IMG/VR virus record: IMGVR_UViG_3300024927_000003
Location: 1-37,890 of that record
From: a virus
Direction: 5' to 3' (one strand)
Length of the DNA: 37,890 bases
The notes under the pieces are model-generated. The model was given only the letters and a program-made list of their open reading frames with translations. It did no database searches and was not told where the DNA came from. The position numbers were made by a program, and so were the translations under genes. Of this stretch, positions 20,299 through 34,349 are shown piece after piece (position 1 is the stretch's first letter; each line of letters starts with the position of its first letter).

Positions 20299-20426
20299 TC
20301 TGTTTGCCTTAACACTTTCTTAGCCTTAGCTATTTTCTCTGGCACTTGCCCATGAAACTTCATCCCCTTTAGTGCTCCTAGCAATTCAGCAAGCGCGGTG
20401 CGTAGTTGTGATTCTTGTTCGCTCAT
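20295..20426 (-). CDS. Very small helical protein (43 aa)
   Basis: 43 residues, MSEQESQLRTALAELLGALK and then a basic helix ending VLRQTE. The start overlaps the methyltransferase stop (TAATG) and its stop overlaps the next start (ATGA), so it fits exactly into the operon, the main argument that it is real. One amphipathic helical hairpin; function unknown. Confidence 0.68.
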   Translation of the reverse strand: MSEQESQLRTALAELLGALKGMKFHGQVPEKIAKAKKVLRQTE

Positions 20427-22171
20427 TACGCGACCAATCTCATCTCATCACCTTCATGGCAAACTGCAACTAACGCAGCGCCCGGATAAGGTGAAACGCT
20501 ATTGCCAACCATACGCACTTGCTCTGCTACTGTAAAAGCGCGTCCATCATGGCCATGTGTGAATTTGTAGTCTTTGTCAAAGCCTTGAGCTGAATAAAGC
20601 TCTTTTGGCTTGAGCATGCGCAACTTAATATCAACAATCAGGTATGGCATGCCTTTGTAAATTACGGTCACCAAAGCCAAGCGGTCTTTTGTGGTAATAG
20701 TTGGCACAGGTTCATTAACGCTGCTCATGTTGTCAGTGCCGTAGTAGCTCATTAAGAAAGCTGATACACGTAAAGCTTTCTCGGTAATAGCTTCTTCATT
20801 TATCTCAAGTAGGCTGGCAGAAACAAGGCCTTGAACAGTTCTTTGTGAAATGATGGTACTTACAGGCTCACGTACATCATGGCCAAGGTTTGGTTGACCG
20901 TTGCCAGTGTTGTTGTATTGAGCAAGAAACGTTGTGACTAATGCATGACGATTCTCTGTAGTGATCGTAGGCAATGAACCTTTTAAGCCTGAGCTTCTAT
21001 CATTACCAGATTCTGTTTTGTCACCGTAGTATTGCTGCAGGTGTGCCATTGCCAAAGCTTGACCACCACCGTTTGCAGTAATTGTGCCTAATGGCTCTTG
21101 GCTTGATTTAGCACCATCGCCCCATCGTTTAGTTTTGCCGCTACCTTCGCCGTGGCCTGCTTGCACCATGATTGGTGTTGCTAAGGCAAATTCACCACCT
21201 TTGGCTGTTGTGATGGTGTTCAATGGTTGATTAATATCATGAATACCATTTGAGCTGCTTTGTGTTACTTGAACGATGAACGGATCAGCATTATTGATAA
21301 CGTACTTCATCATGCCTTTAGCGATACGGCGCATTGTGGCCTCTGCTAATGGCTTCTTACGGTCAAATATAGATTGAGATTCAATGCTGAAATCAATGTG
21401 TTCATGCGCGGCGCTCCAACGCTTCTGACCGCGCTTAGGATTTTTAAAGTGCGTAGGTGCAGGGAATCTTACTTGCTGCCCATCATTACGCGCATGCATA
21501 AATAGTCTGTCTCGTGTAGTGCCAGCACCGTAATCAGCTGCAACAAGGTTTTGGCATTTAACGTCATAGCCCATGTTGTTAAGCATTTTGATAAAACGTT
21601 GCCAAGTTTGGCCTGCACGCTTAGGGTCTGGAATTAGATATTGCTTTTCGCGCGGCACAACTTCACCAGGTGCAGCAATACGGTTAGTAACCTTGCCGTT
21701 GGCATCAGTTAACTTGTCTAAAGTAATCACGCGACCAGTTGCACTATCACGCTTTGCAATCAATGGACCCCATTTTTGAACCTGTTTAACATTCTCAAGC
21801 GTAATTACGCGAGGCTTTACTTGACCAGCCCAGCGAACAACAACCCATGACAATGCACGGCGTTTTTCATTACGAGGTTGACCACCAGCTGCTTGACTGT
21901 GATGTGTGCAATCTGGACTTGCGTGAAGGTGTCCAACAGGACGACCATGCACTACTGAATCTGGGCATACTTCAAATACATCTGCTACAAAGTGGCGTGT
22001 TTGAGGGTGATTGGCGCGATGCATACTCAATGCATCGTCATTGTGGTTAATCGCAATATCAGGATGGCGACCTAGTGCCATGTAGATTGCCTTTGACATA
22101 CCGCCACCACCTGCAAACAGGTCAACGATCAATTCGTTATGAATATCAAGCAGCATTTGTGGTCTGATCAT
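20426..22171 (-). CDS. C5 cytosine DNA methyltransferase with tandem internal repeats
   Basis: 581 residues. Motif I is VDLFAGGGGMSKA (residues 16-28). The catalytic loop reads ASPDCTHHSQAAGG, PDC in place of the usual PCQ, and motif VI is LENVKQ. A target-recognition region at about 305-530 contains five degenerate repeats of the form P-x-x-TIT-x-x-ALVT (QPLNTITTAKG, EPLGTITANGG, GSLPTITTENRHALVT, EPVSTIISQR, EPVPTITTKDRLALVT). Motifs IX-X are near the end (AQGFDKDY, QVRMVGNSVSPYPG). It would methylate phage and host DNA, probably to evade restriction; there is no partner nuclease in the operon. Longest gene of the PL operon. Confidence 0.88.
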   Translation of the reverse strand: MIRPQMLLDIHNELIVDLFAGGGGMSKAIYMALGRHPDIAINHNDDALSMHRANHPQTRHFVADVFEVCPDSVVHGRPVGHLHASPDCTHHSQAAGGQPRNEKRRALSWVVVRWAGQVKPRVITLENVKQVQKWGPLIAKRDSATGRVITLDKLTDANGKVTNRIAAPGEVVPREKQYLIPDPKRAGQTWQRFIKMLNNMGYDVKCQNLVAADYGAGTTRDRLFMHARNDGQQVRFPAPTHFKNPKRGQKRWSAAHEHIDFSIESQSIFDRKKPLAEATMRRIAKGMMKYVINNADPFIVQVTQSSSNGIHDINQPLNTITTAKGGEFALATPIMVQAGHGEGSGKTKRWGDGAKSSQEPLGTITANGGGQALAMAHLQQYYGDKTESGNDRSSGLKGSLPTITTENRHALVTTFLAQYNNTGNGQPNLGHDVREPVSTIISQRTVQGLVSASLLEINEEAITEKALRVSAFLMSYYGTDNMSSVNEPVPTITTKDRLALVTVIYKGMPYLIVDIKLRMLKPKELYSAQGFDKDYKFTHGHDGRAFTVAEQVRMVGNSVSPYPGAALVAVCHEGDEMRLVA

Positions 22172-23291: not shown

Positions 23292-23548
23292 GCTGCTGCC
23301 TTTGTTTGCTGCACTAAAAGCTCAAGCTCGTTGGATTTAATGTTAGCTAGATGCTGGGTGAGTGTATTTATGAGGTTTTCAGTATCATCGCGCTCTAATG
23401 TTAAGCAGAATGAAAAATTTCCCTGCCTAAACCAGACTGCATTTTGTAAAACATTGTCATTAAAAATTGTTGATGCCGCTCTAATTTCCGTGTTTTGAAT
23501 TTCTATTTTTACATCTAGAGACAAGTTAATTTGGGTTTTACTACTCAT
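23288..23548 (-). CDS. Hypothetical early protein (86 aa)
   Basis: The start is taken at the ATG at 23548 because a good AGGGAG ribosome site lies 6 bases before it; the longer frame from 23572 has none. The product (MSSKTQINLSLDVKIEIQN...) is a beta strand-rich N-terminal half followed by a helix with repeated Leu and Gln. Not recognised. Coupled by overlap to the following membrane gene. Confidence 0.65.
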   Translation of the reverse strand: MSSKTQINLSLDVKIEIQNTEIRAASTIFNDNVLQNAVWFRQGNFSFCLTLERDDTENLINTLTQHLANIKSNELELLVQQTKAAA

Positions 23549-23629
23549 ATTGTTCTCCCTGATAAATTCCATGATGTTTTTAAGCTGTAGTGGCGTTTGG
23601 TTATGTAGTAATGCGTGTCTTTAAGGCGC

Positions 23630-23830
23630 TTAATCAGTCGCCCGTGTGTAATCCATGACAACATCCAGCCAAAAAGAAATACCGATGTAAGCTTCATGTA
23701 ATAACTCCAAAAATTGAGGCGTTAACAGATAGGTGATTGTTAAAATAAATACGGCTGCAACAATGCTTTTAAGCGCCTGATAGATAAAATCACTTGATGT
23801 GAGGTCGTCTAGTGGGTGGTTGTTGCTCAT
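23630..23830 (-). CDS. Single-span membrane protein (66 aa)
   Basis: 66 residues: polar N-terminus (MSNNHPLDDLTSSDF), one strong membrane helix (about 23-40, IVAAVFILTITYLL) and a second amphipathic helix. Starts 2 bases after the preceding stop. The 81 bases between its stop and the next start hold no gene I can see. Function unknown. Confidence 0.6.
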   Translation of the reverse strand: MSNNHPLDDLTSSDFIYQALKSIVAAVFILTITYLLTPQFLELLHEAYIGISFWLDVVMDYTRATD

Positions 23831-23832
23831 GG

Positions 23833-24015
23833 TTAAGCGCGCTCTGCACTCATGTTAGCCATCATCTGGCGGCGCGCCTCAAGCGACACCACCTTACTTT
23901 TGTTTTTTTCTGGACGATGCACCACACGAAGCCCTAATGCCTTTGCTTCGTCAACAATGGTTTGAACGGTGCGGATATTCGTGTTTTCTGCAATTTGTAA
24001 ATGAATGGTTTGCAT
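23833..24015 (-). CDS. Hypothetical early protein (60 aa)
   Basis: Start placed at ATG 24015 with TAAGG 7 bases upstream; a longer frame from a TTG at 24042 overlaps the previous gene and lacks a ribosome site. Product MQTIHLQIAENTNIRTVQTI then a basic helix (LEARRQMMANMSAERA). Possibly DNA-binding or a small regulator; not recognised. Confidence 0.6.
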   Translation of the reverse strand: MQTIHLQIAENTNIRTVQTIVDEAKALGLRVVHRPEKNKSKVVSLEARRQMMANMSAERA

Positions 24016-24023
24016 GGTTAGCC

Positions 24024-24224
24024 TTAAATTTTGTTGTACCAATATTCTTGTGCAGGTTTTGCACGCGAATTTTTCGGTATTGGCTGCTGCGGTGTTTTGC
24101 GTTGTGCCAGCCTAATTAAACAAGTCACCAATGCTTTACTCTGCATGGCGCGTTCAAACGTGTAGCCCAACCTAGGGAGTTGTGAGGTATTAAATGCGGT
24201 TTGTAAGTCTGCTGTTGCTGGCAT
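24024..24224 (-). CDS. First gene of the PL operon, hypothetical (66 aa)
   Basis: 66 residues, MPATADLQTAFNTSQLPRLG with a basic proline-containing C-terminal half. AGGAG lies upstream of the ATG, partly inside a 6-bp hairpin (24235-24252). As the promoter-proximal gene of PL, it would be made first after induction, the slot of N-like regulators in lambda, but there is no arginine-rich antiterminator motif. Confidence 0.62.
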   Translation of the reverse strand: MPATADLQTAFNTSQLPRLGYTFERAMQSKALVTCLIRLAQRKTPQQPIPKNSRAKPAQEYWYNKI

Positions 24225-24234
24225 TTTTCAAACT

Positions 24235-24252
24235 CCTAAATTACTGTTTAGG
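24235..24252 (-). promoter_or_regulatory. Leader hairpin covering the PL ribosome site
   Basis: On the minus strand CCTAAA pairs with TTTAGG around a 6-base loop, and the 3' arm runs into the AGGAG ribosome site of the gene starting at 24224. It could restrain translation of the first PL gene until melted or bound. Confidence 0.5.
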
Positions 24253-24267
24253 TGTGGCGTTTGAAAT

Positions 24268-24297
24268 ATAATAAAACAATTGTTTTCTTTAAGTCAA
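24268..24297 (-). promoter_or_regulatory. PL promoter
   Basis: Minus-strand -35 TTGACT (24297-24292), 18-base spacer, -10 TATTAT (24273-24268), with expected start near 24261 and the first gene at 24224. The operator at 24273-24286 fills most of the spacer, so bound repressor would block polymerase. Confidence 0.8.
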
Positions 24298-24310
24298 CAA
24301 CATTTGTTTT
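24273..24310. promoter_or_regulatory. OL operators (two sites)
   Basis: OL1 at 24273-24286 is the perfect palindrome AAAACAATTGTTTT, identical to the site at 26828. OL2 at 24297-24310 is ACAACATTTGTTTT, 12 of 14 matches on the other strand. Centres are 24 bp apart, close to the OR spacing, allowing cooperative repressor binding. Confidence 0.82.
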
Positions 24311-24350
24311 ATTTTGTGATTTTTAGTTGTTTTTAAGAATTTATAGACGT

Positions 24351-24375
24351 AAAAAAACCGCCTCAGTGGGCGGTT
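24351..24375 (-). terminator. Terminator of the repressor operon
   Basis: Minus-strand stem AACCGCC (24375-24369) and GGCGGTT (24362-24356), 6-base loop, then a run of T ending at 24351. It lies between the end of the immunity operon (24416) and PL, so CI transcripts do not run into the early operon. Confidence 0.88.
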
Positions 24376-24415: not shown

Positions 24416-25246
24416 TTATATTCCTATGTCTGAAATATAAATCTTGGTAATTTCTCCATCATTCATTTGCAGCTTTGCTTTAACAGCTATTCTTTCACCT
24501 GCTGCAAAAGCAAGGCTGTAGATATTATTAACATTGCGCAATAATGGGTCAGTAATCACTGCATTAATTCTTTGATTTGACTTTGAATCACCAATTGTTA
24601 CTTTGCAAGAGCCTAACTTCAAGTCTAATTCAGTAATAAGAACTACTAAATCTTTAGTTTCGGTAATTTCATCATCTTCATTCTGGTTTATGACTTCTGC
24701 GTCATCTTCATTAAGAGTGGTAGATAACGAGTTGGCTGGGCTATATATTGTTACAGTTTTTGCTGACTTCCCGAGTGGCGAGACTACTTGTTTAACTGAT
24801 GCGCGAAGGTCTATAGACATACGATCTACTGTATCTAAAAGGCGAGATATTACTGCTTGGTCACGGTTACCAAGCTGATGTATTGCTGTTTCTAAAGCCT
24901 CTTTTAGAAGTTTCATTTCTTCACGCTTATTTGCATTGTAAGCCATTATATACCCAACCAATGGGACTGCAATGGCGCCGAATGATCCAGCTAATATTTG
25001 ATGTTGTTGCACAAAAGTCCATGCCAAAGACATTGAAAAGCAGTTGGCTTTAGCTTCTTTTGCTAAGACTTTGACATCATGTGCGATGAAATATTTTGAA
25101 TATTTTTGAGTTAAAGCAAAAGTCCCAGCTGTCCCGGCAATTCGTGCCAAACCCTGCAAAGACGCACCTAGTGCAAATAAGTCTATTTCATGAGCTTCAG
25201 CTTCTAATCCATCAAATCTAATAACTAATGACTCTTGATTTATCAT
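24416..25246 (-). CDS. Membrane-anchored protein of the immunity operon
   Basis: 276 residues, start at ATG 25246 with TAAGGA 5 bases before; a longer frame would overlap the nuclease gene. N-terminal block LVIRFDGLEAEAHEIDLFALGASLQGLARI, quoted as residues 7-36, resembles a family of phage/prophage proteins I associate with DUF7946 (unverified). One membrane helix lies at about residues 83-104, then a helical stretch and an acidic linker (NEDDAEV, QNEDDEITE), ending in a beta domain (about 196-276). Last gene of the cI operon before the terminator, the place where lambda has rexAB. Expression in the lysogen is expected. Exclusion function is inferred from position only. Confidence 0.72.
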   Translation of the reverse strand: MINQESLVIRFDGLEAEAHEIDLFALGASLQGLARIAGTAGTFALTQKYSKYFIAHDVKVLAKEAKANCFSMSLAWTFVQQHQILAGSFGAIAVPLVGYIMAYNANKREEMKLLKEALETAIHQLGNRDQAVISRLLDTVDRMSIDLRASVKQVVSPLGKSAKTVTIYSPANSLSTTLNEDDAEVINQNEDDEITETKDLVVLITELDLKLGSCKVTIGDSKSNQRINAVITDPLLRNVNNIYSLAFAAGERIAVKAKLQMNDGEITKIYISDIGI

Positions 25247-25262
25247 ATTATCCTTATTGTTA

Positions 25263-25526
25263 TTAACACCCTCTACGTTCCCACCTGTCCTTAGCCTTCG
25301 CATCAGCTTTAGTCTGCCATTGCATATTGCTTGGATGATCTGCACCGCCACAAGCAAGCGCTTGAACATGGTCTATAATGTAGCCAGGACATGAGCCTTT
25401 ACTACGTCCAGTAGCAGGGCATGGGTTAGATTGTTTAAACTGGCTTTTAGCCTTGTAGCTGCGTCTGTATTCTGCTTGAGCAGGGTATGACAATATTAAT
25501 AATATCGTTATCAATAGATAATTCAT
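25263..25526 (-). CDS. Secreted HNH-type nuclease (87 aa)
   Basis: 87 residues. A clear Sec signal, MNYLLITILLILSYPAQA, with cleavage after AQA at residue 18, so the enzyme would act in the periplasm. The remainder has the ββα-metal layout: CPATGRSKGSCPGY, then IIDHVQALACGGADHPSNMQW with the catalytic His at about 53 and Asn at about 67, and QTKADAKAKDRWERRGC. This is a family of small exported HNH proteins as I remember. Located in the cI operon, it should be made in the lysogen and could cut incoming DNA in the periplasm. Weak ribosome site, so expression is probably low. Confidence 0.82.
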   Translation of the reverse strand: MNYLLITILLILSYPAQAEYRRSYKAKSQFKQSNPCPATGRSKGSCPGYIIDHVQALACGGADHPSNMQWQTKADAKAKDRWERRGC

Positions 25527-25538
25527 ATGTGATTATTT

Positions 25539-26087
25539 CTAATCACTCCAAGAGGTGATTCTCCCATTGTCGGTATAAATGTAGGTTCCGTTATATACGA
25601 ATTGAATTGAAGTGCCGCGCGCGTTGACTGTTCTGTTGTATCTTTTAGGTAGGCCGAATGCCGCAAATACATCGCATTCGTATCCATTAATCTTAATTTG
25701 CTTATTCCTGATGGATGATTCATCGTATTTTGTACCGCGTCTCTTTAGATCTGCGGTAATGTTGCTAAAGCTTTCATGAGATGAATATTTTCCAGCCTTG
25801 ATGCAAATCTCATGTTCTTTTAATGCGGCTAAGTTTTGAGGTAAAAGTTGTTGCCTTAGTTTCTCGGCCTTTTTATCGCTAGCAATCTTATCTCTACGCT
25901 GCTTTTCAGTCGCTGCTTTTTTTCTTTCTATTTTTTCCGCTTTTTCATCTATTATCGCTTGTTTAGCTTGGGCTTCTTTTTCTGCCTTTTCCGCAGCAAC
26001 TGGGTCATAACCACCGCCAGTGAAGTAGTCTTCTGCTGCGCTGATATTATGTAATGAAATTAATAATGCAATTAATGCTAACCTCAT
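25539..26087 (-). CDS. Secreted OmlA/SmpA-like protein coupled to the repressor
   Basis: 182 residues from ATG 26087, which overlaps the repressor stop (ATGA); the longer frame to 26123 lies inside cI. Signal peptide MRLALIALLISLHNISAAED with cleavage near ISA. Residues about 30-85 are a charged Lys/Glu/Ala coiled coil. The last 45 residues (AFGLPKRYNRTVNARGTSIQF and YIYTDNGRITSWSD) resemble the C-terminal fold of SmpA/OmlA-type envelope lipoproteins; here no lipobox is seen. Being translated from the repressor mRNA, it should be present in lysogens. Envelope role or receptor masking is a guess. Confidence 0.75.
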   Translation of the reverse strand: MRLALIALLISLHNISAAEDYFTGGGYDPVAAEKAEKEAQAKQAIIDEKAEKIERKKAATEKQRRDKIASDKKAEKLRQQLLPQNLAALKEHEICIKAGKYSSHESFSNITADLKRRGTKYDESSIRNKQIKINGYECDVFAAFGLPKRYNRTVNARGTSIQFVYNGTYIYTDNGRITSWSD

Positions 26088-26770
26088 CTTCTTTTTTTCC
26101 CTGAGTAAATTACCACGCCACATATGGAGCTGCCTTCTGGAACTTTAATAATTCTGTTTGGATAGTCTTGATTTAATGCTAGAAGATATTTTCCTTCTGG
26201 CGTATCTTGCAGCCTCTTGAATGTTGCATTTCCATGCTCATCTCTGACTATTACATCATCGTTGTGCCTGGCTTGCACTTCTGGATCAACAAAGATATGG
26301 CAGCCTTCTTGGTAATCGGGTGACATTGAGTCCCCTACGACTTCTAGTACGAATGTTTTGTCACTATGCGTCGTGCCGCAAATGAGCCATTCTGTTTCAA
26401 AGTCAACATCATATATGTGGCCAGTATCACATAGCTCTCCTGCTCTAACCCATGAAATGACGGGGCATTTTTTTATCTGAACTGATGCTGATTTTACGTT
26501 GTATTCCGCAATTGGCTGTTTTGCTTTGAGTTCTATAGCTAATCCTTCATTTGTAATGAAGTCAGGTGCTGTACTCCCTGTGAGTAGCTCTTGAATTGTT
26601 ACCCCTAAAGCTTCGGCTAGTAAGCTAGCGAACCTAGATGTTTCGCTATCTCTTTTTTCAAGCGCACTTATGGCCCCCTGAGAAACAATGTTGTTTGTCT
26701 TTTCAGATAGCTCGTATTGAGTAAGCCCTTGAGCTTCTCTGATTCGTTTTAAATTTTCACCTAGTGCCAT
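26084..26770 (-). CDS. CI/LexA-like phage repressor with S24 self-cleavage domain
   Basis: 228 residues. An N-terminal HTH_3 domain (residues 5-64: LKRIREAQGLTQYELSE...GAISALEKRD) binds operators. A linker leads to the S24 peptidase domain: cleavage site Ala110-Gly111 in SWVRAGEL, Ser148 in VVGDSMSPD and Lys185 in ATFKRLQ. RecA-stimulated self-cleavage would trigger induction. The gene starts 11 bases from OR3, with AAGG before the ATG, and is followed by an ATGA-coupled gene. It should repress PR and PL via AAAACAATTGTTTT sites. Confidence 0.94.
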   Translation of the reverse strand: MALGENLKRIREAQGLTQYELSEKTNNIVSQGAISALEKRDSETSRFASLLAEALGVTIQELLTGSTAPDFITNEGLAIELKAKQPIAEYNVKSASVQIKKCPVISWVRAGELCDTGHIYDVDFETEWLICGTTHSDKTFVLEVVGDSMSPDYQEGCHIFVDPEVQARHNDDVIVRDEHGNATFKRLQDTPEGKYLLALNQDYPNRIIKVPEGSSICGVVIYSGKKRR

Positions 26771-26781
26771 ATGTATACCTT

Positions 26782-26841
26782 AAAACAAATGTATTTATAA
26801 AACAAACAACAATTGTTTGACTTTCATAAAACAATTGTTTT
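26782..26841. promoter_or_regulatory. OR operator region (three sites)
   Basis: Three copies of one operator between the divergent repressor and Cro genes: AAAACAAATGTATT at 26782-26795 (12 of 14 consensus), core AACAATTGTT at 26808-26817, and the perfect AAAACAATTGTTTT at 26828-26841. Centres are 24 and 22 bp apart, about two helical turns, as in lambda OR. The site nearest the repressor gene is the weakest match, like OR3. Confidence 0.85.
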
Positions 26842-26846
26842 ACAAT
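26817..26846 (+). promoter_or_regulatory. PR promoter
   Basis: -35 TTGACT (26817-26822), 18-base spacer filled by the perfect operator, -10 TACAAT (26841-26846). Predicted transcription start near 26853, only about 4 bases before the ATG at 26857, so the first gene would be leaderless or nearly so. Confidence 0.8.
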
Positions 26847-26856
26847 GATTTCCTAT

Positions 26857-27117
26857 ATGGAAGCTTTCAAACAAATTATTGAAATTTCAGGTGGGCAAAC
26901 TTCATTAGTACGCCTCCTTAAAAGTATTAAACCAGACTCTAAAATTCAACAGGGTCATATTAATAATTGGATTAATAGGGACTTTGCTGTTCCGTCTGAG
27001 TGGGTTATCCCATGTTGCCAAGCCGTTAACTGGCAAAAAACTCCTCATCAAATATGCCCAGAACTTTACCCTCATCCTGATGACGGCCTACCTATACATT
27101 TACGGAGTGCTGCATGA
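26857..27117 (+). CDS. Cro-type regulator, YdaS-like HTH
   Basis: 86 residues from ATG 26857. An ATG at 26845 lies within the -10 of PR and cannot be on the transcript. The sequence EAFKQIIEISGGQTSLVRLL...QQGHINNWINR...VPSEWVIPCCQAVNWQKTPHQICPELYP matches the YdaS/Cro-like HTH family that sits divergently to phage repressors. It would bind the same operators with other preference and favour lytic growth. First gene from PR, probably on a leaderless mRNA. Confidence 0.85.
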   Translation: MEAFKQIIEISGGQTSLVRLLKSIKPDSKIQQGHINNWINRDFAVPSEWVIPCCQAVNWQKTPHQICPELYPHPDDGLPIHLRSAA

Positions 27118-27150
27118 TGCAACAATGGGGAGGCGCTGCAGCATACATTG

Positions 27151-27396
27151 CTAAATCGCAGAGAAGATCTCATCAATCGCACCACGCGCAATCTGCTGGA
27201 ATTCGATGTCCATATTCGCGTTGTCCATATGTTCGGTTAGCGCGTCATAAGCAATTGTCATCAGCCGTTTTTTTGAGGAGGGGTCTATTCTCAGTAATGG
27301 CAAAAGAACCCTGTTACTCATTGCCAATGCTTCATGCCTGGCATGCAAAGCGCGATGCGCGTCTTCTAATGCTTCTAATCGTTTCTCAAGTGACAT
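27151..27396 (-). CDS. Minus-strand coiled-coil protein inside the PR operon (81 aa)
   Basis: 81 residues, MSLEKRLEALEDAHRALHAR continuing with a clear heptad pattern, then IAYDALTEHMDNANMDIEFQQIARGAIDEIFSAI. The composition is far more protein-like than the overlapping plus-strand frame. GAGAG precedes the start. It is the only gene opposed to PR transcription between Cro and the CII-like gene, so its transcript is antisense to the early leader. I recall similar short proteins in other phages. Function unknown. Confidence 0.7.
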   Translation of the reverse strand: MSLEKRLEALEDAHRALHARHEALAMSNRVLLPLLRIDPSSKKRLMTIAYDALTEHMDNANMDIEFQQIARGAIDEIFSAI

Positions 27397-27441
27397 TTTT
27401 ACTCTCTTTATTTTTAATTACTTTCTTTAGATGACTGAATT

Positions 27442-27470
27442 ATGTATGTGTTTATTGATGAACCATACAT
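27442..27470. promoter_or_regulatory. Inverted repeat upstream of the CII-like gene
   Basis: ATGTATG (27442-27448) and CATACAT (27464-27470) are exact reverse complements, centred about 22 bp apart, just before the AGGAGG ribosome site. A dimeric regulator could bind here or a weak stem could form in the leader. Confidence 0.4.
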
Positions 27471-27488
27471 TTATTTAGGAGGAAATAA

Positions 27489-27926
27489 ATGTTGACTATT
27501 AGACATTTAGCACACCAGTTAGCCCAACACCGAATTGGGGATTTAGCTTTATTCATGGGGAAAGATCCTCAAGGGTTGCGTAATAAGCTTAATTTCAATT
27601 CAGAGAATGCTCATTTATATGTTCAAGAGTTTGAGCAGATTGTTGATTTTACTGATACTAATTTTTCTGTTGCTGAGTATTTCGCAGCCAAATGTAATGC
27701 GGTGGTGGTGAAGTTGCCAACAATCAATGATGGTGGGGATATGTGTCTGCTCGATTCGTACATGCAGATCATGAAAGAGATGGGAGACTTAGCTACTGAG
27801 TTTCAAAAGGCATATGCGGATGGCGATATTGATAGAAAAGAGTTTAAGCGCATAGCTAATGAGGTATCAGGTGTTCAGGGCAAGCTCTTGGCATTTCAAA
27901 ACACTGTAGAAAGCAAAGTGACATAA
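27489..27926 (+). CDS. Phage regulatory protein CII-like (CP76 family)
   Basis: 145 residues. The N-terminal HTH (LAHQLAQHRIGDLALFMGKDPQGLRNKLN), split as residues 6-34, followed by helical EFEQIVDFTDTNFSVAEYFAAKCN and LLDSYMQIMKEMGDLATEFQKAYADG, matches the phage regulatory CII/CP76 family, usually found between Cro and replication genes. Very strong AGGAGG 6 bases before the ATG. It probably activates lysogeny genes or early control; details unknown. Confidence 0.82.
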   Translation: MLTIRHLAHQLAQHRIGDLALFMGKDPQGLRNKLNFNSENAHLYVQEFEQIVDFTDTNFSVAEYFAAKCNAVVVKLPTINDGGDMCLLDSYMQIMKEMGDLATEFQKAYADGDIDRKEFKRIANEVSGVQGKLLAFQNTVESKVT

Positions 27927-28000
27927 CTAGCAGTTTTGATTAATCCGCAATAAGTAGAACCCCCGCGCCCCGTATAAGGATATAAGAGGAAGTAGCAAAT

Positions 28001-28123
28001 ATGATTAAAAGTTTAGTAAACAGTTCCAAGTTTAGGGGTGAAACGGGTCCTTCTGGCACTTTCATCAATACGGGTCGAAACGAGCGTGATTTGTCTCACA
28101 TAAACGGTGTTGGAACATACTAA
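28001..28123 (+). CDS. Very small protein (40 aa)
   Basis: 40 residues with an AGAGGA site 9 bases before the ATG. Product MIKSLVNSSKFRGETGPSGT and then FINTGRNERDLSHINGVGTY: basic, Gly/Ser-rich, probably disordered. The stop is 3 bases before the next gene, which has no good ribosome site of its own, so translation of this small frame may deliver ribosomes to it. Confidence 0.55.
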   Translation: MIKSLVNSSKFRGETGPSGTFINTGRNERDLSHINGVGTY

Positions 28124-28125
28124 AC

Positions 28126-28728
28126 ATGCTTAAGGTTAATGTCAGAGCTGACTTTTCAGCTATCAACAAAAAATTAAAATCTTTATCAAATGATATTGAG
28201 AAGAAGGTAATTCCTGCTGCACTGAATAAAGTAGGTGCAAAGGGAAAAGTAGAAATGTCTCGTGCTATTGCATCAGAGTTCAATATTCCAAGAAGTGAAG
28301 TTACAAGTAGATTGAAGTTGACTAGAGCCGGTCGTAAATTTACTCAGTGGCTTGTGCAGCTCGATCCATTTGCGTCACGTAGATTTGGTAGATCTCTTAA
28401 TTTAATCCGCTTTATGGAAAAGAAAGTGACTCTAGCTGAGGGGAAGCGCCGTAATAAAGCCGGTACCCAAAATCAACTTCATTTTCAAATTAAGCGAGCT
28501 GGTGGAAAGAAAATAATCACGGGTGCATTCATTGGCAATAAAGGCCGTACCGTGTTTGTTCGCCAGTCAGATGCAAGACTCCCAATTAAAGCTTTGTCCA
28601 CCATTGATGTTCCCCAAATGTTCAATACTCGTTTGATTCGTTCACGTGTTGAAGAGCGTATTCGTAAAGAGCTGGTTGTTGAATTTGACCGAGCTATCAA
28701 AGCTGTTACAACAGGAATTATAAAATGA
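28126..28728 (+). CDS. Minor tail protein Z-like (tail completion), out of place
   Basis: 200 residues. The stretch DIEKKVIPAALNKVGAKGK, then MSRAIASEFNIPRSEV and GRTVFVRQSDARLPI, matches the prophage minor tail protein Z family that completes the tail before head joining. In lambda Z lies between FII and U, but here it sits between the CII-like gene and the primase, and would be made early from PR. It overlaps the primase start by 4 bases. Confidence 0.82.
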   Translation: MLKVNVRADFSAINKKLKSLSNDIEKKVIPAALNKVGAKGKVEMSRAIASEFNIPRSEVTSRLKLTRAGRKFTQWLVQLDPFASRRFGRSLNLIRFMEKKVTLAEGKRRNKAGTQNQLHFQIKRAGGKKIITGAFIGNKGRTVFVRQSDARLPIKALSTIDVPQMFNTRLIRSRVEERIRKELVVEFDRAIKAVTTGIIK

Positions 28729-31133
28729 GCAGTGCAGTTAACCAGCAAGAGGTATTCGACCAGCTTACTAGTATCGGCTTAATTGTTGATAGTTTTATTA
28801 TTGGTCGCATGGTGCGCTGCAAGGTTGAGGGTACCCGTGAGAAGAAGGGTTGGTACTCTCTTCACGATTTTACTAAGGACAATGGCGATGTGATCATTGT
28901 TGGTAGTTATGGTATTTGGCAGGGCAATGATAACGGTGCGCGTAAAATCAACATCGATCGCCAAGCGCTGAGCAATGACCAACGAGAGGCGCTTAAAGCT
29001 AAGTACGCACAGGATAGAGAAAAGGCGGAAGCTAACCGTAAACGTGAAATTATGCTGGCGGCAAAGCGCGCCCAAGCAACCTGGCTTAAGTTAAATGCTA
29101 CTGGTGAATCTGAATACCTGAAACGTAAAAACGTAGGTGCTTATGGTGTGCGTTACTCTGACTCTGGCGCTATGGTTATTCCGGCTCAAGATAATAGCGG
29201 TTCTACTTACGGATTGCAGTTTATTTTGCCAGCAGGTCATCCACGTAAAGCTAAAACTGGACGCGATAAAGAGTTCTGGCCAGTAGGCATGGAAATGCGT
29301 GGTAAGTACCACATTATTGGAGGTTCACCACGTAGAACATTGCTGGTGGCAGAAGGCTATGCCACTGCAGCAACTCTGCATGAAGCAACTGGGTTGCCAG
29401 TAGCAGTAGCATTTAATGCAAATAACCTGCTGCCAGTCGCACAAAATCTTAAAAAACGATATAAACGAGTCAATCAATTAATCTGCGCAGATGACGACTA
29501 CATTCAAAAATGTGGCTCATGTGGAGAAATGACATTGATGAGCCATGGTGAGTATTGCGAATATTGTGGATCTGAGCACGGTAAAAACAATGCTGGCACA
29601 TCAAGTGCACAAGCTGCAGCACTTGCGGTTGATGGTCATTGGATTGCTCCTGTTTTCACCATTGACCGTGAACGCAAAAAGATAACTGACTTCAATGATT
29701 TGCACGTATCAGAGGGTTTGCATGTTGTTCAGCATCAAGTTGAGCAAGCTATCCTCCAACTTGGCTGGGGTAGTGATGTATCAGCCAGCGTCACCTCTCT
29801 ATCTGTGGGGGCGGGGGATGCGCTAAAGCCGTTGTTAGATGTAGAGGATGCAGTTGATCGCTATTCTCTGATTTATGGCGCTGGTGGCACGATGTTCGAC
29901 CATCAGGAAAGCGCTCTAATCCCAAAATCAGATGTGATGGATATATGTGTTGACCATGCCTGGAAGGAATGGAAGCTACATAAAGGTCGTAAGGTTGTTC
30001 GCTTGTCTGAGGTTGGGTTTGATCCAACTGAGAATGATAGACATATTAAGTGCAATCTGTGGGGTGGCTGGCCTACAACACCTAAGCAAGGTAAGTGCGA
30101 TGTATTGCTGGATTTGCTGCAATATTTGTGCAGCGGTGAGGAAAAGAAAAATAGCACTGAAATCTATGAGTGGGTGCTCAAGTGGTTGGCTTATCCCATT
30201 CAGCACCGTGGTGCAAAAATGCGCACAGCGCTTATTTTTCATGGACCACAAGGCGTAGGTAAAAATCTATTTTTTGAAGCCTATGGGGCTATATACGGAA
30301 AATATAACCGTATTGTTGGCCAGGCAGAGCTTGATGATAAGTTTAACGACTGGGCATCTGGCAAGTTATTCATGATTGCTGATGAGGTGATGGCTAGACA
30401 AGAGCTGTATCACCAAAAAAATAAGATTAAGGCATTAATAACTGGTGAAAATATCCGCATTAACCCTAAAAATGTGGCTGCGCACGATGAGCGAAATCAT
30501 GTAAATCTTGTATTCCTTTCCAATGAAATACAACCGTTGGTTCTGGATAAGGATGATCGGCGCTTTGTGGTTATCTGGGTGCCTGAAAAGCTAGGTGATG
30601 AGATGTATCGTGCCGTTGATGAAGAGATTAAAAGCGGTGGGGTGGCTGCATTGCATCACTACTTGCTTAATTTAGATCTAGGTGACTTTACTGAACACAC
30701 AAAGCCGCCAATGACGCAATCAAAAGAGGATCTAATCGAGGTCAATAAAGATAGCGTGCAGCGATTTATGGATGATTGGATAAGCGGTGATATAGGCCTG
30801 AAGGTTATCCCATGTCACTCCGAAGATTTATATCGAGCTTACCAGCAATGGTCTAGACGGAATGGTGTAGCTAGGCCACGTGAGTCATCTCAATTTATCA
30901 GTACAGTTTCTAAAACCCGTGGATGGAAAAAAGGTCGTCCGCGCGTTTATAAATCATGTCATTACGAAGGTGATCAAGTTCAAATGAGCATGATCGCACC
31001 GCCAGTAGATTTAATTAATGAAAAATTCCAGATGGGTGAATTGCAGCCAGCAAAGTGGCTAACGGATTGCTACATGGAGTTTCGTAAAGATTTAGATGAT
31101 AACTCTGCTCGTAGTGGGGGTGATCATGCGTAA
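28725..31133 (+). CDS. Replicative primase-helicase (Toprim plus SF3/D5-like helicase)
   Basis: 802 residues. Residues 1-60 are a small N-terminal domain, then a helical linker. The Toprim-like part (about 150-330) includes LLVAEGYATAATLHEATG and LICADDD. It is interrupted by a zinc ribbon CGSCGEM...CEYCGSEHG at about 263-286. The helicase domain has Walker A GPQGVGKN at about 506-513, Walker B LFMIADEV (about 549-556), and motif C VFLSNEIQP. It primes and unwinds the phage origin, which likely lies directly after the gene (31135-31387). Overlaps the Z-like gene by 4 bases. Confidence 0.9.
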   Translation: MSSAVNQQEVFDQLTSIGLIVDSFIIGRMVRCKVEGTREKKGWYSLHDFTKDNGDVIIVGSYGIWQGNDNGARKINIDRQALSNDQREALKAKYAQDREKAEANRKREIMLAAKRAQATWLKLNATGESEYLKRKNVGAYGVRYSDSGAMVIPAQDNSGSTYGLQFILPAGHPRKAKTGRDKEFWPVGMEMRGKYHIIGGSPRRTLLVAEGYATAATLHEATGLPVAVAFNANNLLPVAQNLKKRYKRVNQLICADDDYIQKCGSCGEMTLMSHGEYCEYCGSEHGKNNAGTSSAQAAALAVDGHWIAPVFTIDRERKKITDFNDLHVSEGLHVVQHQVEQAILQLGWGSDVSASVTSLSVGAGDALKPLLDVEDAVDRYSLIYGAGGTMFDHQESALIPKSDVMDICVDHAWKEWKLHKGRKVVRLSEVGFDPTENDRHIKCNLWGGWPTTPKQGKCDVLLDLLQYLCSGEEKKNSTEIYEWVLKWLAYPIQHRGAKMRTALIFHGPQGVGKNLFFEAYGAIYGKYNRIVGQAELDDKFNDWASGKLFMIADEVMARQELYHQKNKIKALITGENIRINPKNVAAHDERNHVNLVFLSNEIQPLVLDKDDRRFVVIWVPEKLGDEMYRAVDEEIKSGGVAALHHYLLNLDLGDFTEHTKPPMTQSKEDLIEVNKDSVQRFMDDWISGDIGLKVIPCHSEDLYRAYQQWSRRNGVARPRESSQFISTVSKTRGWKKGRPRVYKSCHYEGDQVQMSMIAPPVDLINEKFQMGELQPAKWLTDCYMEFRKDLDDNSARSGGDHA

Positions 31134-31811: not shown

Positions 31812-32388
31812 AGCAAATCAAACAGAGTTTGCTGAACTGATGGGCTGGACTAAGGGTTATGTTAGCCAACTAAAGCAGGCAGGACGTTTAGTTTTTTCTG
31901 AGGATGGCAAGGTGGATGTTGAGGCAAGTAAGATCAAGATTGCTGAAACTGAAGACCCTAACCGAGATGATGTGAAAGCTCGCCATGCAAATGAGCGCGG
32001 TAGCGATAGTAAAGTAAATGAAATTGGTGCTCATTCGACTACTGGCAAATCAAAAAAAGAAAAAGAGCCAAAAGACCCGAGCCGCGATAGCTTTTCACAA
32101 TCTCGCGCAAAAGAGCAGCAATTCAAAGCGCTGCAGGCTGAGCTGGACTATCAGGAACGTATAGGAAAGTTAGTAGCGCGCGATGCTATGAAGGATGCAA
32201 TTGGTGATATGGTCACTACATTTCGCCAAAACTTAGAAAACATGCCCCACCGCATTAGTGCTGAGTTGGTAGGAAAAGATATCAACGACATTCGTATCAC
32301 CCTCAAGCAAGCCGTCCATCAAGTACTTACGCAGTTAGAAAAAGGCTGCAATGACAAATTGAATCAATCTGCTCAGGAGCAAGCATGA
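31804..32388 (+). CDS. Terminase small subunit, gpNu1-like
   Basis: 194 residues from ATG 31804, with GAGG 7 bases before; an ATG at 31792 is less well placed. N-terminal winged HTH (FKANQTEFAELMGWTKGYV) as in lambda Nu1, a charged linker with KSKKEKEPKDPSRDS, then a C-terminal helical domain (LDYQERIGKLVARDAMKDAI) that binds the large subunit. It recognises the packaging site, so cos or pac is likely nearby. It overlaps terL by 4 bases. Confidence 0.87.
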   Translation: MFKANQTEFAELMGWTKGYVSQLKQAGRLVFSEDGKVDVEASKIKIAETEDPNRDDVKARHANERGSDSKVNEIGAHSTTGKSKKEKEPKDPSRDSFSQSRAKEQQFKALQAELDYQERIGKLVARDAMKDAIGDMVTTFRQNLENMPHRISAELVGKDINDIRITLKQAVHQVLTQLEKGCNDKLNQSAQEQA

Positions 32389-34349
32389 GTTTGCCATTTG
32401 ATGCATTTCTTCTGACTTATGAAGCTGCTCGTAAAGCAGTAAGGCCTAAAGAGTTTTTAACCGTTAGTGAGTGGGCTGATAAGCACAGAATATTATCTGG
32501 TGAGGGTTCTGCTGAGCCTGGCGAATGGAAAACATCGCGCACCCCGTTTTTACGCGAGCCTATGGATTCACTTTCTGAGGACTCTGCTGATGAAAAAGTG
32601 GTGTTCATGAAATCAAGTCAAGTAGGTGGCACTGAGGCAGGCAGTAATTGGGTTGGTTACATCATGGATCATGCCAAAGGACCAGCAGCGATTGTAATGC
32701 CTACTGAGCGCAGCCTGAATGATTGGGTTTCTCAAAAATTTGACCCGATGGCAAATGACACACCTGCAGTAGCAGAGGCGCTTTCTAAAAAGAGCAATAA
32801 GTCATCTGACAATAACGCACAGCGTAAGAAATTTCTTGGCGGTATTTTGTATTTTAAAACGGCCGGCTCTACCTCAGAGTTAAAGTCTACTAGCTTGCGT
32901 TATGCCTTGGCTGATGAAGTGGATGAATGGGCTTGGAGTACTGACCAAGGTGACCCACTAAAATTGCTAGATATTCGGTTAACAGCTTTTGGTGATTCAA
33001 AAATGTTTATTGTTAGTAGCCCCACTGTTAAAGATGCTAGCCATATTGAAGATGCGTTTGAAAAAGGTGACCAGCGCCGTTACCACGTGCCATGCCCGCA
33101 TTGTGGAGAGATGCAGTATCTGAAATGGCATAACCTACGCTGGACAAAGGATGTAAAAAATCCGAGAAAGATTGCGTCTGTTTACTACGCCTGCGAACAC
33201 AATGGATGTGTGATTGAGGAATATCACAAAGCCATCATGTTGCCGGAAAAAGGGCATGGCGGTGAGGCACGCTGGGTTGCCATGGCGCCTGATCATTTAT
33301 ATAAAAGTTATCACATCAATGCTTTGTACTCTCCAATTGGTCTTGGTAAATCTTGGACCCAGTTGGTTTATGAGTGGATTGATGCTCAGGACGATCCTAA
33401 AGACCTAATGGTGTTCATTAACACTCGCCTTGGTGAAACATATGCGGACCGTAGCCATGATATTAAGCCAAATGCATTATCTGCCCGTGCAGAGCCTTAC
33501 GCCTTACGTACGATACCAATTGGCTGTTTAGTTCTTACTTGCGGGGTGGACACGCAAGATGATCGATTAGAGATTCAAATCACTGGTCATGGACGTGGTG
33601 GTCGCACTTGGCCTGTTGATTACCATGTTATCTACGGCAATCCAGGTGATGACGATGTTTGGGATTCTTTAGGTAAGTATTTGAAGGATGCTGTGTTTGT
33701 GAATCATTTCGGTAAGAGTTTGAGAATTGAAGCAACAGCTGTCGATACAGGCGGTCACCATACGCATATGGTTTATGGATTTTCTAGGCGTGCTGCAGCA
33801 GATTTTGGCGTTTCACGCGTTATAGCATGTAAGGGTGCAAGTACTTATGGCCGCGCTATTTTAGGAAAGCCAAGTTTGCAAGATGTTAACTGGCGAGGCC
33901 AAACCATTAAAAAAGGGGTGGCGCTGTATGTTATTGGTTCAGATACAGCAAAACATTTGCTCTATAACCGTTTAAATGGGGATAACGAGAAAGACCCAGG
34001 GGAGCGTCTTGTGCATTTTAGTACAGGACTGGATGACTCTTACTACGATGGTTTGGTGTCTGAAACTTACAACCCCAGAAAAAACAGATGGGAGCTTAAA
34101 AAAGGTAAGCGTAACGAGCAACTTGATACTTGGGTGCTATCTATTGCAGCTAGTCATCATCCTGAAGTCTACCTGCATAAATGGAAAAAATCCGACTGGG
34201 AAAGACGCGAAGCAATGATAGAGCCACAAAATGTTGCAGATACTGATGCAACAGAAATGCAACAACCGCAACCGGATGTGGTTGACGTATCAACCAACAT
34301 TGGTGGCAAGCTGCAGCTTTCTGGTTTTAATCGTGGAGGGGCGCGATAG
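32385..34349 (+). CDS. Terminase large subunit, lambda gpA-like
   Basis: 654 residues; ATP-driven packaging motor and cos/pac nuclease. The ATPase has the deviant Walker A MKSSQVGGTEAG (about residues 76-87) and Walker B ALADEVDEW (about 177-185). A zinc-ribbon-like CPHCGEMQ...CEHNGC sits near 236-273. The nuclease starts with LTCGVDTQDDRLEIQ near 385-399. The gpA type, with a Nu1-type partner, suggests cos packaging with defined ends. It ends at a TAG sharing a base with the next GTG start. Confidence 0.94.
   Translation: MSLPFDAFLLTYEAARKAVRPKEFLTVSEWADKHRILSGEGSAEPGEWKTSRTPFLREPMDSLSEDSADEKVVFMKSSQVGGTEAGSNWVGYIMDHAKGPAAIVMPTERSLNDWVSQKFDPMANDTPAVAEALSKKSNKSSDNNAQRKKFLGGILYFKTAGSTSELKSTSLRYALADEVDEWAWSTDQGDPLKLLDIRLTAFGDSKMFIVSSPTVKDASHIEDAFEKGDQRRYHVPCPHCGEMQYLKWHNLRWTKDVKNPRKIASVYYACEHNGCVIEEYHKAIMLPEKGHGGEARWVAMAPDHLYKSYHINALYSPIGLGKSWTQLVYEWIDAQDDPKDLMVFINTRLGETYADRSHDIKPNALSARAEPYALRTIPIGCLVLTCGVDTQDDRLEIQITGHGRGGRTWPVDYHVIYGNPGDDDVWDSLGKYLKDAVFVNHFGKSLRIEATAVDTGGHHTHMVYGFSRRAAADFGVSRVIACKGASTYGRAILGKPSLQDVNWRGQTIKKGVALYVIGSDTAKHLLYNRLNGDNEKDPGERLVHFSTGLDDSYYDGLVSETYNPRKNRWELKKGKRNEQLDTWVLSIAASHHPEVYLHKWKKSDWERREAMIEPQNVADTDATEMQQPQPDVVDVSTNIGGKLQLSGFNRGGAR

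Follow-up and report, generated by a model that had tools for sequence, protein, structure and literature searches.

Organization of the immunity region

The window analysed here, a stretch of 37,890 nt (IMG/VR record IMGVR_UViG_3300024927_000003, positions 1 to 37,890), encodes a lambda-like temperate phage with terminase gpA, a lambda-type portal, tail tip J, integrase and excisionase. Its immunity region contains the following features, where PL and PR are the promoters on either side of the repressor operon:

24268..24308, minus strand, PL, TTGACT-18-TATTAT at 24297-24268, with an operator at 24275-24284 and a one-mismatch operator at 24299-24308
24356..24375, minus strand, intrinsic terminator ending the operon
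24416..25246, minus strand, DUF7946 + DUF7947 protein (Pfam; PHROG 5147, the phi80 gp40A family)
25263..25526, minus strand, exported HNH-fold protein of 87 aa (alignment, AlphaFold2, structure comparison, residue census)
25539..26087, minus strand, G2, exported 182-aa protein with a signal peptide, a coiled middle and a C-terminal domain of ~90 aa
26084..26770, minus strand, CI-type repressor (HTH_3 + Peptidase_S24; Pfam, PHROG), first gene of the operon
26808..26846, plus strand, PR, TTGACT-18-TACAAT at 26817-26846, with operators AACAATTGTT at 26808-26817 and 26830-26839
26845..27117, plus strand, divergent Cro/YdaS-like regulator, first gene of PR (PF15943, E 5e-6, under the curated cut-off; PHROG 35)
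27489..27926, plus strand, CII-like activator (PF06892, E 9e-22)

Re-examination of the window confirmed the gene order, strand and coordinates given by the first-pass annotation. The repressor was identified by matches to PF00717 (E 1.9e-21), PF01381 (E 1.2e-9) and PHROG 4. The start of G2 at 26087 lies within the cI stop as an ATGA overlap, in agreement with the coupling claimed earlier. The HNH gene begins 12 nt past G2, and the DUF7946/DUF7947 gene 16 nt past HNH. The start of the latter was set at 25246 because its homologues start there; the start at 25369 in the ORF list represents read-through into HNH. The terminator (24375-24356) precedes PL (24297-24268), as had been proposed.

The perfect palindrome AACAATTGTT, a CI-type operator, occurs three times in 37.9 kb, at 24275 (PL) and at 26808 and 26830 (PR), and thus only on either side of the operon. 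When one mismatch was allowed, 9 sites were found against 3.6 expected. This layout of operators and promoters is the lambda-type immunity-region control pattern, with cargo inside. The cassette genes lie between the repressor and PL, on the repressor's strand and with a shared transcript architecture. Anatomy and comparison with known phages back the earlier view that the cassette occupies the equivalent of the lambda rexAB slot, and that it would be linked to cI and transcribed in the lysogen. On the integrase side, the window also carries a C5-cytosine DNA methylase (PF00145) at 20426-22171, which is 97% identical in another phage, L009.

Fold and active site of the exported HNH protein

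The HNH protein has a signal peptide at approximately residues 1-18, identified by inspection, four cysteines, and residues D52, H53, N67, K79 and D80. No family in Pfam or NCBIfam covers it, and its PHROG matches to HNH proteins were weak. The AlphaFold2 model is beta-beta-alpha (E49-53, E68-72, H73-86) with a pLDDT of 87.6. In a comparison with solved structures, the top ranks were HNH domains, among them Cas8-HNH (60 residues, 1.3 Å, Z 6.8), with further matches to GVE2, Gme, McrA, pyocin and colicin DNases. Z was 7.2 at most, and values below 8 are not decisive alone, so the HNH fold was assigned from fold, motif and sequence profile combined. The nuclease fold claimed for this protein is thus backed by the predicted structure and the motif.

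In an alignment of 26-27 relatives, D52, H53 and N67 were invariant and the cysteines conserved. A wider residue census found the DH pair in 153 of 154 relatives, and 147 of 154 had a hydrophobic stretch N-terminal to the HNH domain. The cysteines would fit a protein folded outside the cytoplasm, where they may form disulfides. Close HNH pairs gave dN/dS values of 0.03-0.15 (several dS values were saturated), which indicates that the gene is under purifying selection.

The catalytic residues had been described as intact. This holds for D52, H53 and N67, but the third histidine of the motif, nine residues past the Asn, is Ala76 in the window. Of 154 relatives, 2 have histidine at this position and 148 have Ala, Gly or Ser. 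Catalysis is uncertain because the third His is missing almost family-wide. Position 80, four residues further along the helix, is Asp in 154/159 relatives, including every relative with Ala, Gly or Ser at position 76 (154/154). The two relatives with His76 carry Thr80, and the three with Trp76 carry Ser80. Colicin DNases carry their metal ligands nine and thirteen positions downstream of the Asn. By analogy, Asp80 may replace the metal ligand lost with the third His. The swap is offered as a hypothesis, since only two sequences have the His form and these are probably related.

Many exported HNH relatives end in a C-terminal tail, GxxGGxYxxxxxGxKxYV, that by eye resembles the PBCV basic adaptor domain. 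It was seen in L044, L053, L054, L057-L059, L061, L062, L066, L081, L092, L096, L099, L204 and L221.

Recurrence of the HNH gene behind repressors

Relatives of the HNH protein were collected from viral contigs and bacterial genomes, and near-identical copies were removed. Repressor-like genes were called at all loci using models built from the window's CI, and counted as upstream when they lay on the HNH strand at a distance of up to 2 kb. A repressor-like gene lay upstream of HNH in 31 of 77 non-redundant viral loci, against 2 downstream. For S24-type repressors alone, the viral loci gave 21 upstream, 0 downstream and 0 on the opposite strand. Pfam added HTH proteins at L015 and L029 that the repressor models had missed.

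Chromosomal loci had an upstream repressor-like gene in 7/68 cases and no nearby one in 58/68. Relatives outside prophage immunity regions were found in Methylococcales, Burkholderiales and Acidobacteria. Since relatives are common outside the repressor slot, the basic function of the HNH protein may be general, for example in the use of eDNA. The arrangement behind the repressor is more than chance: unrelated phages share it, and the HNH gene shows purifying selection.

On a tree of the HNH proteins (149 rows, 69 columns; most forks unresolved and few branches supported), the repressor-linked label was clustered, with 22 changes against 35 when shuffled. With so few branches supported, the tree suggests repeated recruitment of HNH to the repressor slot.

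Envelope-type partners and cassette exchange

Genes between the repressor and HNH were of envelope type in 24 of 28 cases, compared with 51 of 211 control genes from the same loci; a gene counted as envelope type if a simple hydropathy rule gave its product a signal peptide, a lipobox or a transmembrane segment. The associated p value of 3e-10 is indicative, given a crude rule and loci that are partly dependent on one another. Among the first genes downstream of HNH, 6/30 were of this type. The window's G2 fits the pattern of an envelope-type partner. Another recurrent partner is a protein of ~62 aa with a single membrane span (LAILWFxLPFAxFGTKxLI), encoded just upstream of HNH at:

L006:4792-4980
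L007:1100-1288
L008:3584-3787
L011:4738-4926
L013:4496-4681
L208:4810-4998

In L208 the start and stop of this gene and HNH overlap, and the HNH protein is 55% identical to that of the window.

The sister phage L006 matched the window at 98.9% identity across 27022-30026 and at 94.3% across 23545-24314. Between cI and PL, HNH was the sole alignable stretch, at 91% identity. The whole cassette has been swapped, with HNH alone retained. HNH was likewise the only alignable part when the immunity region of L009 was compared with the window. In its cassette, L006 has a different repressor, a solo protein resembling the type I restriction R subunit, the small membrane protein, HNH, a Gp49-like protein and an HTH protein. 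The Gp49-like match was weak, and the Gp49/HTH pair resembles a toxin-antitoxin system. The solo protein of L006 passes the Pfam cut-off for HSDR_N_2, the N-terminus of the type I restriction R subunit.

Two further genes were noted in these related phages. The solo protein lies directly behind cI at L006:4006-4782, L011:3951-4721 and L012:1153-1923, and is another candidate for an exclusion gene there. On the PL side, L007:2740-3498, L008:5962-6675 and L012:4292-5044 encode an FGE-sulfatase/C-type-lectin-like protein (PF03781 in L007). Its C-terminus, ending GFRCTKSL, is highly variable among copies and resembles the target of a diversity-generating retroelement.

G2 had been described as OmlA-like, a name for which the searches gave no support. 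PF04355, the SmpA/OmlA (BamE) family, did not match G2 at E up to 1, a PDB profile search returned no BamE, and the signal peptide MRLALIALLISLHNISAAE contains no Cys and therefore no lipobox. Nor did PF04355 match three G2 relatives at E up to 0.1. A match of G2 to MotB at profile positions 6-106, probably due to the coiled region, was not accepted as homology. No relatives of G2 were found in phage records or viral contigs. Its C-terminal domain, and no other part, was found in 2 of 150 Methylophilaceae genomes: in two long exported proteins of one, and in a lipoprotein of the other (L175). The L175 lipoprotein has a lipobox and is encoded near phage-type genes; its contig also carries an exported HNH relative ~3 kb away.

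A search for the same trio in other prophages had been proposed. HNH behind a repressor does recur, but the exact trio of G2, HNH and DUF7946 was found nowhere else.

The DUF7946/DUF7947 gene

The last protein of the operon matched PF25678 (E 2.7e-51, 174.7 bits) and PF25679 (E 1.4e-17, 63.9 bits), each with a cut-off of 27, and PHROG 5147 (E 2.6e-80). It is 43% identical to phi80 gp40A, whose gene itself lies between cI and pL of phi80. Directly behind a repressor were 50 of 63 DUF7946 ORFs, while 0 lay ahead of one; several of the remainder follow HTH proteins unrecognised by the repressor models. In the near relative L013, HNH and DUF7946 are adjacent, with DUF7946 98.6% identical to that of the window. 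The HNH-DUF7946 order is repeated in the distant phage L258, where the two genes overlap (HNH 51%, DUF7946 37% identity).

This product had been called a membrane protein. A single hydrophobic segment in its centre (residues 84-102), kept across the DUF7946 family, makes a membrane location plausible. In the structural model, residues 1-90 have a pLDDT below 50 and the N-terminal half is unreliable; any fold claim is confined to the C-terminal part, an OB-like barrel. OB/cold-shock-like barrels are too common to indicate a function. The NCBIfam name 'LAPAL phage structural protein' was rejected (36 bits against a cut-off of 60). A 330-aa protein behind HNH in L012 was considered as a DUF7946 analogue and dismissed, as no relatedness was detectable. 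Among the defence profiles of PADLOC-DB 2.0.0, the DUF7946 protein weakly matched the candidate PDC-S42 (E 1.5e-4), and neither HNH nor G2 had a match.

A possible function in exclusion

We propose that these genes form an interchangeable exclusion cassette expressed in the lysogen, whose exported HNH nuclease would act outside the cytoplasm on DNA brought in by phages or by transformation, a reading to which we assign about an even chance. We infer that the lysogen transcribes the genes, that the HNH protein cuts DNA and contains disulfides, where and on which DNA it acts, and that the cell is protected. As a lysogenic-conversion cassette in the interval between cI and PL, it would be read from the repressor-maintenance promoter during prophage dormancy. 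The small exported HNH-fold protein would be its constant element, presumably disulfide-folded outside the cytoplasm. It would most likely cut DNA entering the cell, whether superinfecting phage DNA in transit or dsDNA taken up by competence, by which the prophage might otherwise be replaced or face competition. That a nuclease made in the lysogen would meet inbound DNA is suggested by combining the cI-n hotspot described below with the precedents of element-encoded DNases. Either phage DNA or competence DNA may be the main target, as ComEC was present in 7/7 Methylophilaceae genomes searched.

The exchangeable envelope proteins, here G2, would probably localise HNH at the site of entry or act as separate exclusion factors. 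Export of the two products, G2 and HNH, is backed by predicted signal peptides, whereas the earlier suggestion that neighbouring proteins serve as immunity partners is unsupported. No self-protection was found for the phage's own DNA, which must enter the same kind of cells. The DUF7946/DUF7947 protein, a member of the phi80 gp40A family, is a separate exclusion candidate that is repressor-linked in its own right and travels in the same slot. A broader version of the proposal, possible but on the doubtful side, is that the exported HNH family, with its swapped D-H-N-D site in place of H-N-H, serves as the constant effector in a modular exclusion system driven by the repressor, breaking down inbound DNA before it reaches the cytoplasm. 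Interchangeable envelope proteins would direct it, and phages would have recruited it to the cI slot repeatedly.

The exported nuclease might instead mainly block natural transformation, as do Dns of CJIE1, YokF and IdeA, with little effect on phages. The gain for the prophage would be that uptake of homologous DNA, which would cure it or recombine it away, is prevented. All characterised exported DNases of mobile elements in the literature searched act in this way (PMC4774983, PMC10893306), competence DNA is naked dsDNA exposed outside the inner membrane, and ComEC is encoded in every Methylophilaceae genome searched. ComEC by itself, however, is no proof of competence, and the phage-exclusion slot with its exchangeable envelope partners fits phage exclusion at least equally well. 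We regard a main role in blocking transformation as unlikely.

It seems improbable that the HNH-fold protein, rather than being a nuclease, is weakened in catalysis and binds DNA or has a structural role after export, with any protection coming from G2 and DUF7946. The family-wide replacement of the third His by Ala, Gly or Ser would suit such a protein, as would the strong and independent linkage of DUF7946 to repressors. Against this, D52, H53 and N67 are invariant, the gene is under purifying selection, and the residues at positions 76 and 80 follow a pattern that fits a swapped metal ligand and not decay. The many relatives that Methylococcales, Burkholderiales and Acidobacteria carry on the chromosome, outside immunity regions, could point to general lysogenic conversion, in which scavenging of extracellular DNA for phosphate or nucleotides, or biofilm turnover, benefits the host and the cI operon simply offers a convenient place for expression. 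Phage copies of HNH, however, favour the position behind the repressor, with envelope partners, and sister cassettes hold conflict genes such as the solo restriction R-like protein and the weakly matched Gp49/HTH toxin-antitoxin-like pair. Conversion with no defensive role is, in our judgement, very improbable.

Comparison with known systems

The cI-n interval is a mosaic hotspot that holds rexAB and bstA (PMC8585504). Like the window's cassette, lambda rexAB and BTP1 bstA immediately follow cI, share its strand and precede PL, and expression in the lysogen is expected. They have no sequence family in common with the cassette, and neither RexAB nor BstA is an exported nuclease, whereas two of the window's products are predicted to be exported, one with a nuclease fold. 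In phi80, gp40A stands alone behind cI, without G2 or HNH, in a position shared with the window's last gene.

P22 SieA-type exclusion is likewise an envelope function expressed by a prophage, and stops DNA crossing the periplasm (PMC11436027). SieA, however, is an inner-membrane protein that blocks passage and is no nuclease, unlike the window's HNH protein. Phage HNH packaging endonucleases are also small, phage-encoded and of HNH fold, but adjoin the terminase and act in packaging (PMC9658991). The window's HNH gene (25263-25526, minus strand) is remote from the terminase (32385-34349, plus strand) and its product carries a signal peptide, so this assignment was rejected.

Dns, YokF and IdeA belong to other protein families, being endonuclease I-like or thermonuclease-like. 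As with the window's HNH, they are exported, encoded by prophages or other elements, and thought to shield the element from incoming DNA; such DNases lower transformation 10- to 1000-fold in Bacillus, Campylobacter and Vibrio (PMC4774983). They are not tied to a repressor operon, whereas the window's HNH is. The literature searched, with partial coverage, described no exported HNH protein in this role.

The arrangement is real, conserved and recurrent, and the function is proposed from it. An exported HNH family unnamed in Pfam and NCBIfam gains a genomic address and residues to test, and phi80 gp40A is tied to the same slot in distant phages. No nuclease is among the exclusion mechanisms known for the cI slot, RexAB and BstA, and the exported nucleases of mobile elements in the literature found are described as barriers to transformation and have no tie to the repressor. 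If the proposal is true, a repressor-linked family of exported nucleases would join cI-slot exclusion with exported DNases, and would make destruction of DNA in transit testable.
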